A stretch of DNA of 64,000 nucleotides from assembly GCA_949130485.1 (NCBI GenBank), contig OX422187.1, positions 4,798,159 through 4,862,158 on the forward strand, read 5' to 3'. Of the stretch, positions 1 through 39,929 are shown piece after piece. This DNA comes from Agelas oroides (Eukaryota > Porifera > Demospongiae > Agelasida > Agelasidae). Both the position numbers and the translations under genes were made by a program. The notes under the pieces are model-generated. The model did not search any database. It saw only the letters and a program-made list of their open reading frames with translations, and had not been told where the DNA came from. Position 1 is the stretch's first letter, and the number at the start of each line of letters is the position of its first letter.

Positions 1-29
1 ACGAGCTCTGTACACAGTGCCAAACTCTC
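1..29 (-). CDS. RTK A first kinase exon, partial
   Basis: After a TTACAG acceptor the frame reads [10 protein letters not shown] before the window ends. With the previous exon this gives GQGEFGTVY, a canonical glycine loop. The rest of the kinase lies outside. Confidence 0.8.
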
Positions 30-3000
30 CTGTAATGATTGCATTGGTAAATAAACTGTCAATGTGTTGTATCTATGTAACAAACTGGAAATCGCCAAGC
101 GCAGGTACAAGCATGAAACAGACATGCAGTGATGTATGGATATGTAAGGTAAAGGGTAGTCAGTGGATGTGCTTTACAAAGGAATTCAGGCTGCATATTG
201 TGGTTTAAATGCAAACAGGTAAGTTAGGGTAACTGAATCTACACAACTTTTTACATAGTATGAGACAGGAAAATCATATGTACAGAGTGGCTGCTAGGTG
301 TGAGACTGAAGTATTCATGCAGTACCATCTGTGTGGTTGCCTGCTGTTCGGTCAGAGAACTATCAGCTCAAGCCAGGGACACCATTTGGTCTTACTGATC
401 CTCTTATTTGCCTCATACAATCCTATATTATATCTATTACTTCTTTCAGGCACCTTGACCAGCCACCCTTGTTCTATCTCAGCTTAGGAGGAACTTGAAA
501 ACAACTCTAGTATGTGGAAAAAACTTGCACACACATTTTCTTACCTTGTCCGACAGAGTCAAGCAGGTGAAGGTTACTTGTGTGAAATATCATTTCTTCA
601 GGGAAGTCCTGTAGATACCTAGTAGCTTCTTCATTCAGCTCAGCATTAGCCCTTAAAAGATAGAATCAGTAATCAATTCCTTTCTTATGTACAGCTACTG
701 TATGTACAGTTGGTCAGAATGTGTTTCCTTTAAATGAACCTGATAAGCAATGCATGGAACCATACTTGGTAGGATACTCACTTTCTATAAAGCGTAAAAC
801 AACTGATGAAAATTTGATGACAGTGTAAGGACTATACACTCAACACTCGTATGTAAAACAAACGCCCACCTGGCAGGGATACTGTACAATCACTATTTAC
901 AAGCATTATGCATACTATAGCAGTAAATTCATCATATATGCAGCAAAGCAGATTATCGTAGTAGTACCCATGTTTGTCAAACTGCTGCATCTCCACCTCT
1001 CTGTCTCTCACATCATATGTATGGCTCGATGTTTCATTAAGATCACTGGAAATAAAAGAATAACAATAGCATTAATACTTAATTTTGCTAGTTATTGACA
1101 CATGCAGGAGCCTCTGAAAAGCAACCTACTATGCCATGCTTCATATAAATAACTGAAAATAGCATTATATGAATACATACTCATCATAAAAATACACAAA
1201 GTAAAATAACACGTGTGGGCTAGGTGTTCTTCTCAATCAGCTGCATGAGCCATATGTAGCATGCAATTGTTCTTTAGTTAACCAGTCACAAAGAAAAATA
1301 ATTAATACCTTTCATGCAGTCGTGAAAGTTTCCTTCCCTTCCTTCTCTTGCAATAAATGAGGCAGCCAAGAAGAGGAATAACCAACACCATTAATGCTAT
1401 TACACCCAGAATAGTTCCACCAACAACAGCTCCTGTGTCAATAGATGTGGCTTCAGAAGGGCTGGTTCCAGAAGGAGGTGGTGCATCTACAATGATCAGA
1501 ATACCTATCATAGAATCTTCCTCGTTTTTACTCTGATGATAATCATTGTTTTCATAACATACACCTCAGTGAATATCATATTTAACCCGCCACTTAGGTA
1601 TTACTGTGCTCAAGCTAGCTTTGTAGAAAGTATGCATTATCTGTCCGATAATGGAAGCTGATAAACACATATATTATCTAGTCAGGCCTGGTATATTAAA
1701 TATAGAACTGTGTCCAGAATCATGCATGCCATAGTCATGCTCTCAATGTTCTTGCATGAGCTGTTGTTATTATTTCACAAAACCTGGTCCAATAATTCTT
1801 ACCATCATCATCTTGAATGAAGATAACAGCTTCATTGGAAGTGGTGACGTTTACACCCTCTGGTTGTACTGAGCTCACAGTGAAACTGATATTGAACTTC
1901 TCAGTTGTCTCACGGCCACTGTCTTCTGTGATAATTATTCTGAAGCATCTGCCATGATCAGAAGCATTGTTGGTCACTGTAGCTAAATTCTTATCAGGGT
2001 CCAGCTGGAAATCACTTCCTGTATACACAAAAAGGCAACAGAGTTTGCAAGATATTTGATATGAATTAGACTGTATAGCTAGCCTAATATACTCAAGCAT
2101 TGTGGAACCTAAGTAATTAAGAGACATGTAGGTTGAACATTTGTATAATTAGTTCCACTTACCATTGGCTGTGTCAGGAGATGTAGATCCCATCAGTTCA
2201 ACAACAACATTTGGCGCAATTTGGCTGGGATCTGTTGGCTGGAGAAATACAGCACACACTTCCACAGTACCATCACCTTCTCCAAATGTGTACGCAGTCT
2301 GATTAAATCCAATAACAGCAACTGAAGACAGAGTTTGAAATGATAGAAATGCTCAACAATTCAAGTGGGCTTTTGAGTCACATTATGTATGTATAATATA
2401 GTGATACAATTTCCATTGCATATAATATCTAATCAGATTGTGGTTTCCCTGAGCCTGAATTCTTGGAGTTAGTGAAGAGCTCAGGTGTTATACCAATGAG
2501 GCATGCTGTTTTCTGCAGCTGTGATTTATCTTCATTTAGCTACTTGTGTGCAACAGTTCACCCTTACCATCATTATCTAGGATGTCAACTGTGACAGTAT
2601 CTCCACCAGGTACAAATGAAGCAGGTGCTGTTACAGCACCAGAAATAACAAAGTTCTCTGTCCCTTCCAGGAGTTGGTCATCCCAAATATTGATAGCAAG
2701 AACTTGGACATTGCTATCATTAGTGCCCTGGTCAAATGTCACATTTGTATCAAATGTTAGTGTGGAGGTCACCAGATAGAAGTCATCACCCTCTGCAAGG
2801 AGAAGAAGTAGAAAAAGAAAGTACTTACCACAGTTGACCTCTGAATCCGTACAGCAGTCAATACTACTTTAATGGTAGTTGAATACTAGTATTTCAACAA
2901 TTGACTCTGAATCAATGCAGCAGTATTAAATGGTACAACATGCAGTAGTACTTGCAACCTACCAGTAGCACTGCCATTAACAACTGCAACTGTGACTATA

Positions 3001-38600: not shown

Positions 38601-39929
38601 TCAGGAAACTTTAGGGTGTTCAAACACTCATTCAAGTGGTTCTAGTTATTGCCAAACTCTATAGATCACTATTGTCAATGTTCCATGTATGAGTTGTTGA
38701 GCCCTCTAAGTAGCTTGTTGGGTTGACGGAATGACTGACACACAGACAAATGCTTACCCCCCCACCCACAGTGTGCATGCATGCTACATGGTAATAAGCA
38801 TTTTAGTTTTCACACAAAGAAGCCTTTAAGTACTTCCTGTTTAATATTGCGTTAGCAAAGTTAGCAAATTTGGCACCTCCATACATATGCCATTGCATAT
38901 ACCACTTCATTCAGAACCAATGACACCAGTTATATATAACGGTAAGTACCTGAGAACAGGATCTGTATACATACTATGCAGAGATGAAATGCCTGGTATA
39001 TTCACAGGACCTGCATATAATATGTACTGAGTTTATTTGCAGGACAGAGACATGTGCTTCTGATTTGCGAATAACCAGCATTGATTGGAGCTACTGTTTG
39101 TCAGAAAAGGCTCTAGTAGTTTCAACAGGAGCTGAGGCTCAACAACACCCTGCTATATACCTGTGTGTCAGGCCATAGTCAGCCATATCCTTGTCAGTTG
39201 TTAGCTAAATATAGTGTAAATGTAGTCACTAAATATACACTTATTTAAACAGTGTCACTAGTTGTATGGCATGCAGTTTTTGCACAAGTCATAGCTGTTT
39301 CCATCTAGCTGATTCTGTTTGTGTAGAATTCCAGGTGCTGAAGTAACAAAATGGTATGGGATGCATGGTGGTGTTTTCAAGGCAACATCTTTGCTGTCAT
39401 TCAATAATAGCAGTCAACAATTTGTGCCAGTGCTGTTCATCAGCATAATAAATATGGTCGGGAAAGCTCTGGTTGTGAGCACATGTGCATGCAATATTGG
39501 TTATTCTTATTCCGTGAGAGATTACTACCCTCTTGTTTGGTGCAAGAGCCAAGTTCCCAAGTTGTTGCTGGACTGAGATAAGAAGGCTGGTACATGACTG
39601 GCACTGTATGCTACATGCGGAATTTGATTCAGCCCATGCACCCTCCAGGGAAGAATACTGGTAACTACTAGTGCTCAGACTCAGAGGGGTAACTTGAAGC
39701 CTAGAACAAGTAGAGATCTACTGTGCATTCAGAACAAGTGTGACAGCCTCCGTCACAGAAATGGACACAGCCATGCATACTTTTCTATGTTATAGATTCA
39801 AACAATAGAAAATTACAGTAGTACTGCATGCATAACATACTTACATGTTGAAACCTGCCCGTAGACATAAGTGCATCGCAGAGCTCCAGCTACGGCCAAT
39901 GCAACCACCAGCTCTAACACATTCCCCAT
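30280..39929 (-). CDS. Receptor tyrosine kinase B, SRCR-CalxBeta2-TM-TyrKc, complete
   Basis: Exons in order: 39929-39845, 37497-37339, 36956-36783, 36543-36388, 35461-35255, 34541-34383, 34228-34013, 33675-33498, 33253-33147, 32603-32514, 32127-31913, 31473-31361, 31237-31072, 30875-30733 and 30574-30280 (stop). The sum is 2,463 bp, giving 820 residues with no internal stop. All junctions are GT-AG and phase-matched. Order: signal peptide, one SRCR, two Calx-beta, TM, juxtamembrane, tyrosine kinase, acidic tail. It is the tandem paralogue of gene A, differing by loss of SRCR2 and of Calx-beta 1-4 and 6. It likely acts at the cell surface in adhesion- or recognition-linked signalling (inference). 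Confidence 0.88.
31765..31860 (-). repeat. Duplicated intron/exon-edge remnant in RTK B
   Basis: TTTTTGAGTTTTACAGGGCTGCATGTATGCATTGGTCACA resembles the acceptor edge of the HRD exon and its flanking intron (31455-31500). It lacks the rest of the exon. Likely a partial local duplication. Confidence 0.55.
33147..33253 (-). CDS. RTK B juxtamembrane exon
   Basis: Same as the exon of A at 545-651: [20 protein letters not shown] to SVGQG. Enters in phase 2 straight from the membrane-span exon, since B lacks the candidate extra exon. Confidence 0.85.
33498..33675 (-). CDS. RTK B transmembrane exon
   Basis: Stalk [15 protein letters not shown], hydrophobic span [20 protein letters not shown], basic KRRKGRK. 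Only a few replacements from A. Confidence 0.88.
34013..34541 (-). CDS. RTK B membrane-proximal Calx-beta (equivalent of A domain 7)
   Basis: Exons 34541-34383 and 34228-34013. [54 protein letters not shown]. Several non-synonymous differences from A (G/E, V/A, T/R, K/R). Confidence 0.85.
34812..35020 (-). pseudogene. Stranded half-exon of Calx-beta 6 in RTK B
   Basis: The sequence [20 protein letters not shown] to ILDNDG and the donor are intact. Deletions relative to A (its 2776-2898 and 2925-3236) removed the acceptor, the first codons and the whole partner exon. The nearest upstream AG (ATTCAG, about 35032) would put the exon out of frame and reach TGA within about 13 codons. Skipping it keeps the 820-residue frame. 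Confidence 0.75.
35255..36543 (-). CDS. RTK B Calx-beta (equivalent of A domain 5)
   Basis: Exons 36543-36388 and 35461-35255. [17 protein letters not shown] and [50 protein letters not shown]. The SRCR pair follows immediately upstream because the four other Calx-beta domains are gone. Confidence 0.87.
36783..37497 (-). CDS. RTK B SRCR domain (two exons)
   Basis: Exons 37497-37339 ([21 protein letters not shown]) and 36956-36783 ([17 protein letters not shown]). Equivalent to A SRCR 1, with six cysteines as in group A. Confidence 0.9.
39845..39929 (-). CDS. RTK B exon 1: signal peptide
   Basis: [19 protein letters not shown], as in A. Consensus donor in phase 1. Confidence 0.82.

Follow-up and report, generated by a model that had tools for sequence, protein, structure and literature searches.

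Early animals and their unicellular relatives expanded their sets of receptor tyrosine kinases, and how these gain new ectodomains has mostly been inferred from deep comparisons. Calx-beta domains are located inside the cell in the Na/Ca exchanger and in integrin beta4; in adhesion GPCRs they lie outside the cell, on a seven-pass receptor and not on a kinase. The SRCR proteins CD163 (M130), CD5L and DMBT1 carry, to our knowledge, no kinase. Published descriptions include Calx-beta among the domains of adhesion GPCRs (PMC12716839) and give the Met RTKs a bilaterian origin (PMC6374515). For the sponge Amphimedon queenslandica, PK_Tyr_Ser-Thr is described as ranking in the top five among the partner domains of SRCR proteins, with a count of 14, and about half of the SRCR genes as lying in tandem arrays (PMC10855680).

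The window analysed here, a stretch of 64,000 nucleotides of Agelas oroides contig OX422187.1, holds two minus-strand genes, A and B. Judging from their sequences, both are probably functional single-pass receptor tyrosine kinases of a large paralogous family, A being a mosaic and B a deletion derivative. Gene B (39929-30280) comprises 15 exons encoding 820 amino acids, in the order signal peptide, one SRCR domain, two Calx-beta domains, membrane span and tyrosine kinase; its exons have GT/AG sites and matching phases, with a stop codon at the end and none earlier. Gene A, from 14481 downwards, comprises 27 exons encoding 1547 amino acids without an internal stop, in the order signal peptide, two SRCR domains, seven Calx-beta domains, membrane span and a kinase like that of gene B. 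Most of the gene A kinase lies beyond the window, the gene running about 6.4 kb past the window's first base. Both models were built from splice-site and homology evidence only, and the hydrophobicity of the membrane spans was judged by reading the sequence. The parts of gene B are as follows.

39845..39929, minus strand: exon 1 with the start codon (39929) and the signal peptide; 98.8% identical to the gene A copy
37339..37497, minus strand: SRCR, first half (sequence and Pfam)
36783..36956, minus strand: SRCR, second half (sequence and Pfam)
36581..36584, no strand: junction of SRCR-side and Calx-side introns; the word ATGC is common to both gene A flanks
35255..36543, minus strand: Calx-beta 1, exons 36543-36388 and 35461-35255 (sequence and Pfam)
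34812..35031, minus strand: relic of a Calx-beta half exon, acceptor lost, predicted to be skipped (sequence comparison)
34013..34541, minus strand: Calx-beta 2, exons 34541-34383 and 34228-34013 (sequence and Pfam)
33498..33675, minus strand: membrane-span exon (hydrophobic stretch read from the sequence)
33147..33253, minus strand: juxtamembrane exon, ending in the glycine loop GQG|EFG (sequence)
30280..32603, minus strand: kinase and tail, six exons: 32603-32514, 32127-31913, 31473-31361, 31237-31072, 30875-30733 and 30574-30280 (Pfam and PDB matches)

Those of gene A are:

14397..14481, minus strand: exon 1, signal peptide (sequence, shared with gene B)
10091..14188, minus strand: block that aligns, with its introns, to the SRCR receptor kinase g4.73 (C5:4726373-4730434) over 4120 columns at 97.2% identity
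10914..11634, minus strand: SRCR 1, exons 11634-11476 and 11087-10914 (sequence and Pfam)
9155..10285, minus strand: SRCR 2, exons 10285-10118 and 9334-9155 (sequence and Pfam)
1803..8458, minus strand: Calx-beta 1 to 7, 14 exons (sequence and Pfam)
1309..1486, minus strand: membrane-span exon (sequence)
545..651, minus strand: juxtamembrane exon (sequence)
1..29, minus strand: in-window part of the first kinase exon; the remainder of this exon and the five further ones of the kinase precede the window's first base (sequence)

A Pfam scan of the spliced models, for which the earlier note had proposed an InterPro/HMMER scan, gave SRCR (PF00530; 2.1e-58 over two stretches in A, 1.4e-31 over one in B), Calx-beta (PF03160; 1.5e-55 over seven stretches and 3.1e-19 over two) and the kinase PK_Tyr_Ser-Thr (PF07714; 2.9e-85 and 8.3e-86). 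Kinase catalytic motifs are present in both translated models, those of gene B being [28 protein letters not shown]. With a signal peptide, an ectodomain, a single membrane span and this kinase, the paper-spliced models of A and B are both receptor tyrosine kinases in composition, and the PF00530 and PDB matches place their SRCR domains in the SRCR superfamily. In the Calx-beta repeats, D and E positions are invariant in nine of nine; calcium binding is predicted from family knowledge. The open models and the Pfam matches thus bear out the initial claim that both genes join SRCR and Calx-beta to a membrane span and that B has a full receptor-type kinase; the start codon of gene B also coincides with the end of the region to which that claim referred. 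At E 0.001, Pfam listed no Sema, PSI or IPT domain for either gene, nor did it list FN3 or an Ig domain above cut-off in A or B. The sole Ig-like match (PF24908 on A, E 0.00035) reached 21.1 bits, below the cut-off of 27.8, and sits in a Calx-beta stretch.

Several candidate elements were rejected while modelling gene A. An extra juxtamembrane exon (1045-870) was dropped, as gene B has no matching stretch and stays in frame in its absence; with 7482 as the Cb1 donor the frame breaks, and the donor at 7493 restores phase 1. Two other start-codon candidates upstream of SRCR1 were passed over, the chosen one alone being common to gene B.

The ectodomain exons (SRCR/Calx-beta) and those of the kinase could belong to separate neighbouring genes that were joined only by splicing on paper. 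Such an artefact would fit models built from sequence evidence, a signal-peptide scan that covered only the stretch upstream of SRCR1, and splice sites scoring near or below zero (K4 acceptor, -0.8 in A and B; Cc1 and Cf1 acceptors of A, -2.3 and -0.6). It would also fit the long introns within the kinase of A (about 4 kb) and between Calx-beta and the membrane span of the paralog g7.69 (about 11 kb). However, the reading frame runs through every joint in A and B, and the joints of gene B span introns of 239 bases (SRCR to Calx-beta) and 337 bases (Calx-beta to membrane span). The paralogs argue in the same direction. At least 15 loci in the genome have a kinase exon 83-98% alike; among the loci read, Calx-beta stands beside it at seven, and others have SRCR or NIDO/Sushi. 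Four of the Calx paralogs (g4.59, g7.69, g8.04 and g8.24) share the strand and the Calx-to-kinase exon order of A and B, with splice sites mostly in place: exactly at the position predicted lie 20/22 acceptors and 20/21 donors in g4.59, and 22/24 acceptors and 20/23 donors in each of the other three. The membrane-span acceptor was at its expected place in none of the four (3 bases off in g8.24, none within 9 bases in the others), and three of the four scored lacked the Cc1 donor. Given the short introns of B and the conserved Calx-to-kinase order and splice sites, separate ectodomain and kinase genes are very unlikely, the SRCR-to-Calx joint being seen, among the loci read, in A and B alone.

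Comparison with the paralogs indicates how this joint may have arisen. The SRCR receptor kinase g4.73 lies 78 kb from gene A, and in SRCR1 the two show no synonymous difference in about 73 sites, with an intron 99.5-99.7% identical; dS for SRCR1 between A and B is 0.071, and that between A and g4.73 in the kinase region is 0.25. No match to g4.73 exists at positions 1501-9000 of A, whereas the Calx receptor kinases match A at 1501-8500. Gene A thus looks like a mosaic of two kinds of relative, although g4.73 matches A again at 501-1500 (77-91%). The kinase tree is weakly supported (A with B, 70; g4.73 with g4.70, g7.69, g8.04 and g8.24, 87), and genes of the SRCR and Calx types do not fall into separate groups in it; the case for a mosaic therefore rests on the identity contrast.

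The ancestral gene may instead have had both SRCR and Calx-beta, the SRCR-only and Calx-only receptors each having lost one of them and A and B being ancestral in make-up. Modules are easily lost, and SRCR2 of gene A has diverged from SRCR1 (79-89% DNA identity), so SRCR may predate the recent copying. Among the loci read, however, with upstream stretches read in part, SRCR occurs together with Calx-beta in A and B alone. In g8.04 and g8.24, the first Calx exon is preceded by NIDO and Sushi exons, not SRCR, possibly on a shared transcript. Moreover, A and g4.73 are far more alike in their SRCR halves than in their kinase halves. We consider such an ancestor unlikely; it agrees with the mosaic reading on protein function, and the likelihoods given to the two overlap and do not sum to one. 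In the 5.7 kb upstream of g7.69 no NIDO, Sushi or SRCR was found, and a phase-1 exon scan of the 12 kb upstream of g4.70 gave no such module recognisable by eye. Within the 7 kb read upstream of g4.59, an open frame with a start codon and a hydrophobic stretch precedes the first Calx exon. The idea of a signal-peptide relic in the first Calx exon of gene A was dropped, as an in-frame stop precedes the same exon in g7.69, g8.04 and g8.24 and, in each of the four Calx paralogs scored, its AG acceptor lies where predicted. From these comparisons the SRCR/Calx-beta pairing looks recent and local; the earlier note had suggested a lineage-specific architecture for Calx-beta in a receptor kinase ectodomain.

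Gene B, in turn, looks like an in-frame deletion derivative of A: its junction falls inside introns, at the ATGC shared by both flanks in A. Further downstream, one Calx-beta half exon is gone and the other half has lost its acceptor. This loss, the retroelement ORF and repeats between the two genes, and a kinase dN/dS between A and B of 0.25, the highest of 28 pairs, could be taken as signs that A, B or both are pseudogenes decaying in a tandem array. The neighbours of the damaged repeat share phase 1, however, so that skipping it would keep the frame, and the 820 and 1547 codons contain neither stop nor frameshift. The catalytic motifs are kept, and kinase-region dN/dS (0.08-0.25 across all pairs of eight loci) stays well below 1. 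Decay is accordingly improbable.

Under the preferred reading of A as mosaic and B as deletion derivative, the family members read would carry a similar MET-like kinase behind the membrane span and differ in their outer modules (SRCR, Calx-beta, NIDO, Sushi). In A and B, phase-1 introns flank the ectodomain exons, so that whole modules can be exchanged or lost with the frame intact. The 5' end of an SRCR receptor kinase (signal peptide and SRCR) would have been joined to a Calx-beta receptor kinase to give A, whose SRCR part would have been copied to or from g4.73 very recently. B would be a tandem duplicate in which one deletion, from intron to intron, removed SRCR2 and four Calx-beta domains, and a second one most of another repeat. 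From what is known of these families, SRCR may bind a surface, matrix or microbial ligand, and the Calx-beta array, probably calcium-binding, may form a stalk of variable length. Clustered by ligand, the kinases would be able to phosphorylate the tyrosines of their activation loops (NTYAKSYF) and, in the tail, a tyrosine (YLDV) that would recruit SH2 proteins.

A span of about 250 kb on one contig holds genes of both parent types, the joined product and its deletion derivative. The absence of synonymous SRCR1 differences from the SRCR relative, together with the readable deletion junction, opens module exchange on a signalling receptor to direct testing. The family also offers receptors in which the kinase is nearly constant and the sensor varies. 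A broader, tentative idea, to which we give a low likelihood, is that it forms an actively recombining receptor repertoire, with one conserved signalling kinase and exchangeable SRCR, Calx-beta, NIDO and Sushi cassettes, largely on one chromosome and shaped by gene conversion and intron-to-intron deletion. Such a repertoire might serve self/non-self or microbial recognition through tyrosine phosphorylation and vary between individuals.

Among single-domain PDB chains in the best 60 of 2223 matches to the kinase, MET ranks first and AXL/MER next (MET/RON, E about 4e-67; AXL/MER, 2e-64 to 3e-61). The top match overall, at 1.6e-100, is to an EGFR chain made up of two copies that score about 168 bits each; it was not counted as the nearest. 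A and B share [10 protein letters not shown] and two activation-loop tyrosines with MET/RON but have none of that family's Sema/PSI/IPT ectodomain in Pfam; unlike the TAM receptors (AXL, MER), they show neither FN3 nor an Ig match above cut-off. CD163 (M130), CD5L and DMBT1 have the SRCR domain in common with A and B, with strong PDB matches, and Na/Ca exchanger 1 accounts for all four, weak PDB matches (E 0.004-0.04) of three gene A Calx-beta repeats. Neither MET nor TAM receptors combine SRCR with Calx-beta, and in the open-licence PMC listings searched and in passages of PMC8242945, PMC8662651, PMC4054682, PMC12716839, PMC6374515 and PMC10855680, no description was found of SRCR, Calx-beta and a tyrosine kinase in one protein. 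The earlier note likewise knew of no standard RTK family with this combination; SRCR with a kinase had already been reported in a sponge (PMC10855680). Compared by description, the Amphimedon queenslandica proteins resemble A and B in joining SRCR to a kinase, and the main text of PMC10855680 mentions neither Calx-beta nor NIDO. Since SRCR-kinase proteins were thus already known, what sets A and B apart is their array of Calx-beta domains and the way it is joined to SRCR.

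Gene A and gene B, two receptor tyrosine kinase genes, were modelled in the window (G000:C5:4798159-4862158; source assembly 259 Mb in 141 contigs) by placing exon cores by peptide and scoring splice sites, whose phases had to match; the scores come from a generic consensus table whose weights are not fitted to this genome.

14481 to below the window start, minus strand: gene A, 1547 aa from 27 joined exons, the last five exons and most of the first kinase exon lying in the adjoining sequence L001
39929-30280, minus strand: gene B, 820 aa from 15 joined exons

Both genes contain introns, all in phase 1 from the signal peptide through the membrane-span exon, and the glycine loop is split between GQG, at the end of the juxtamembrane exon, and EFG, on the next exon. 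The tandem pair proposed in an earlier note is borne out by frames without internal stop and by duplicate blocks of 87-95% DNA identity: four (90-95%) pair parts of 1-13039 with 32575-38871, and a further two, at 94% and 87%, extend to 14619 and 40061. Across all 28 pairs of eight loci, dN/dS of the kinase and juxtamembrane part was 0.08-0.25, highest for A vs B, which matches expectation for working kinases. By the tests applied to their sequence, A and B are real and intact.

The same note had described SRCR and Calx-beta modules joined to a kinase, and a Pfam scan of the spliced models found all three in both genes. B carries two Calx-beta and a single SRCR besides its tyrosine kinase; A carries seven Calx-beta and two SRCR besides its kinase, and an Ig-like match there fell below its cut-off. 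In the alignment of the nine Calx-beta repeats, D and E positions are invariant; eight repeats end in DND, END or DDD and one in DNE.

Ectodomain and kinase exons could instead belong to separate genes. This is unlikely, since two introns of B, one of 239 bases (from exon ends) that separates SRCR from Calx-beta and one of 337 bases that separates Calx-beta from the membrane span, leave little space for a gene boundary, and exon order is kept in four Calx-beta receptor kinase loci on the same contig (g4.59, g7.69, g8.04 and g8.24, named by Mb position). All four run from Calx array through membrane span and juxtamembrane exon to six kinase exons, with one additional Calx pair in the last three. 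Acceptors stand exactly where A predicts in 20 of 22 cases in g4.59 and in 22 of 24 in each of the others, donors in 20 of 21 and in 20 of 23, respectively. Among the exceptions, no membrane-span acceptor was found within 9 bases of the expected place in g4.59, g7.69 and g8.04, and the donor of the Calx half exon Cc1 is absent from g7.69, g8.04 and g8.24. This check covers the Calx-to-kinase part, the SRCR-to-Calx joint having been seen, among the loci read, in A and B alone.

A and B give unusually clear evidence on ectodomain assembly. A looks mosaic in structure. Its SRCR end is closer to g4.73, an SRCR receptor kinase locus, than to B, whereas the kinase end is closer to B. A 10091-14188 and its counterpart in g4.73, C5:4726373-4730434, share 97.2% identity over 4120 aligned columns (seven of nine 500-base bins at 99-100%, one at 95%, one at 89%), the two copies lying ~78 kb apart in inverted orientation. 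The first SRCR of A shows no synonymous difference from the three g4.73 copies (~73 sites), with introns 99.5-99.7% identical; between A and B its dS is 0.071. For the juxtamembrane and kinase exons, dS from A is 0.25 for g4.73, 0.16 for g4.59 and 0.13 for B. Across A 1501-9000, g4.73 has no match; g4.59, g7.69 and g8.24 align with A 1501-8500 at 68-92% in sufficiently aligned bins and beyond 8500 have no match except 54 bases in g8.24. In a kinase tree of modest support, one group (87) holds g4.73, g7.69, g8.04, g8.24 and the paralogous kinase locus g4.70, and another (70) pairs A with B; the tree does not separate ectodomain types. Five more places on C5 match the signal-peptide exon of A and B, the similarity reaching barely past the exon limits. 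One copy, at 4.7124 Mb, lies just beyond the end of g4.70, upstream of g4.73; those at 8.177, 8.162, 8.112 and 7.833 Mb lie >70 kb from listed family kinase exons.

B connects A 4758 with A 10712 at a junction at 36581-36584, ATGC being common to both A flanks. The stretch absent from B comprises the second SRCR and four Calx-beta domains and ends inside introns, so that the reading frame is preserved; the more economical reading is a loss in B, because those Calx domains are kept in the four Calx paralogs. A second change, at ~35025-35044, left one Calx half exon missing and its partner half stripped of its acceptor. With no acceptor in the required phase, this relic is predicted to be skipped in splicing.

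A genome search with the three final kinase exons found the activation-segment exon 83-98% alike at 15 or more loci (those listed comprise nine on C5, four on C2 and a single locus on each of C13 and C9), with many further loci at 56-71% among the matches listed. Calx-beta adjoins the kinase at seven of the loci listed (4.60, A, B, 7.71, 7.76, 8.05 and 8.24 Mb), all on C5. Exons were read at six paralogous C5 loci, a set without the 7.76 Mb locus, over a limited stretch upstream, beyond which more modules may lie. SRCR exons occur there in g4.73 only, which has three and, in the stretch read, no Calx-beta. In g8.04 and g8.24, NIDO and Sushi exons (Pfam) lie upstream of the Calx array, and in g4.73 upstream of the SRCR; in the stretches read, they are the sole modules found at the C9 locus, and NIDO is present at the C13 locus. 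Elsewhere in the genome SRCR (among the matches listed) and Calx matches are many. At C5 10.5-10.9 Mb, SRCR exons alternate with more distant kinase exons (46-70%) among the matches listed; this cluster likely represents more SRCR receptor kinases.

Several further features surround the two genes.

15794-16339, minus strand: PHD finger (1.2e-05), the last part of an ORF possibly belonging to a mobile element
18407-21676 and 41316-43991: repeats common to the upstream regions of A and B, 92-97% identity, some inverted (e.g., 18700-19134 vs 21041-20622, 94%)
25401-26000, plus strand: retroelement reverse transcriptase ORF between A and B (Pfam RVT_1, 8.5e-26)
40480-41200 and 58632-59204: internal repeats, several frames open for ~80-180 codons
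44912-45088, plus strand: Sushi exon (Pfam, 4e-08) resembling those of NIDO/Sushi receptor kinases
~45664-45996: fragment after the Sushi exon, a short peptide resembling a NIDO domain end, no Pfam match
about -10090 to -19998, in adjoining sequence below the window start (L001/L002): long array with open frames every ~192 bases (spacing read off)

Because A and B hold the only family kinase exons nearby among the matches listed, the Sushi exon is probably a relic or a piece of a different gene.

The SRCR sequence matches the SRCR domains of CD163, CD5L and DMBT1; the cysteines customarily numbered C1 and C4 are replaced, and two other cysteines occur. Among single-domain PDB chains in the best 60 of 2223 matches, the kinase is closest to MET, followed by AXL and MER. 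For sponges, 14 PK_Tyr_Ser-Thr domains were counted in Amphimedon SRCR proteins (PMC10855680), and the main text of that paper mentions neither Calx-beta nor NIDO; the main texts of PMC8662651 and PMC4054682 contain neither calx nor SRCR. Halichondria panicea has >600 SRCRs and almost 200 putative cytokine receptors, with tyrosine kinase among the dominant domains; TyrKc, Sushi, NIDO and Calx-beta are named for a pattern-recognition-receptor figure, and the combination found in A and B is not stated in the available part of the source (PMC8242945). Resemblance to these repertoires makes a sponge origin plausible; A and B are, as judged from sequence, sponge-type receptor kinases with a new make-up.
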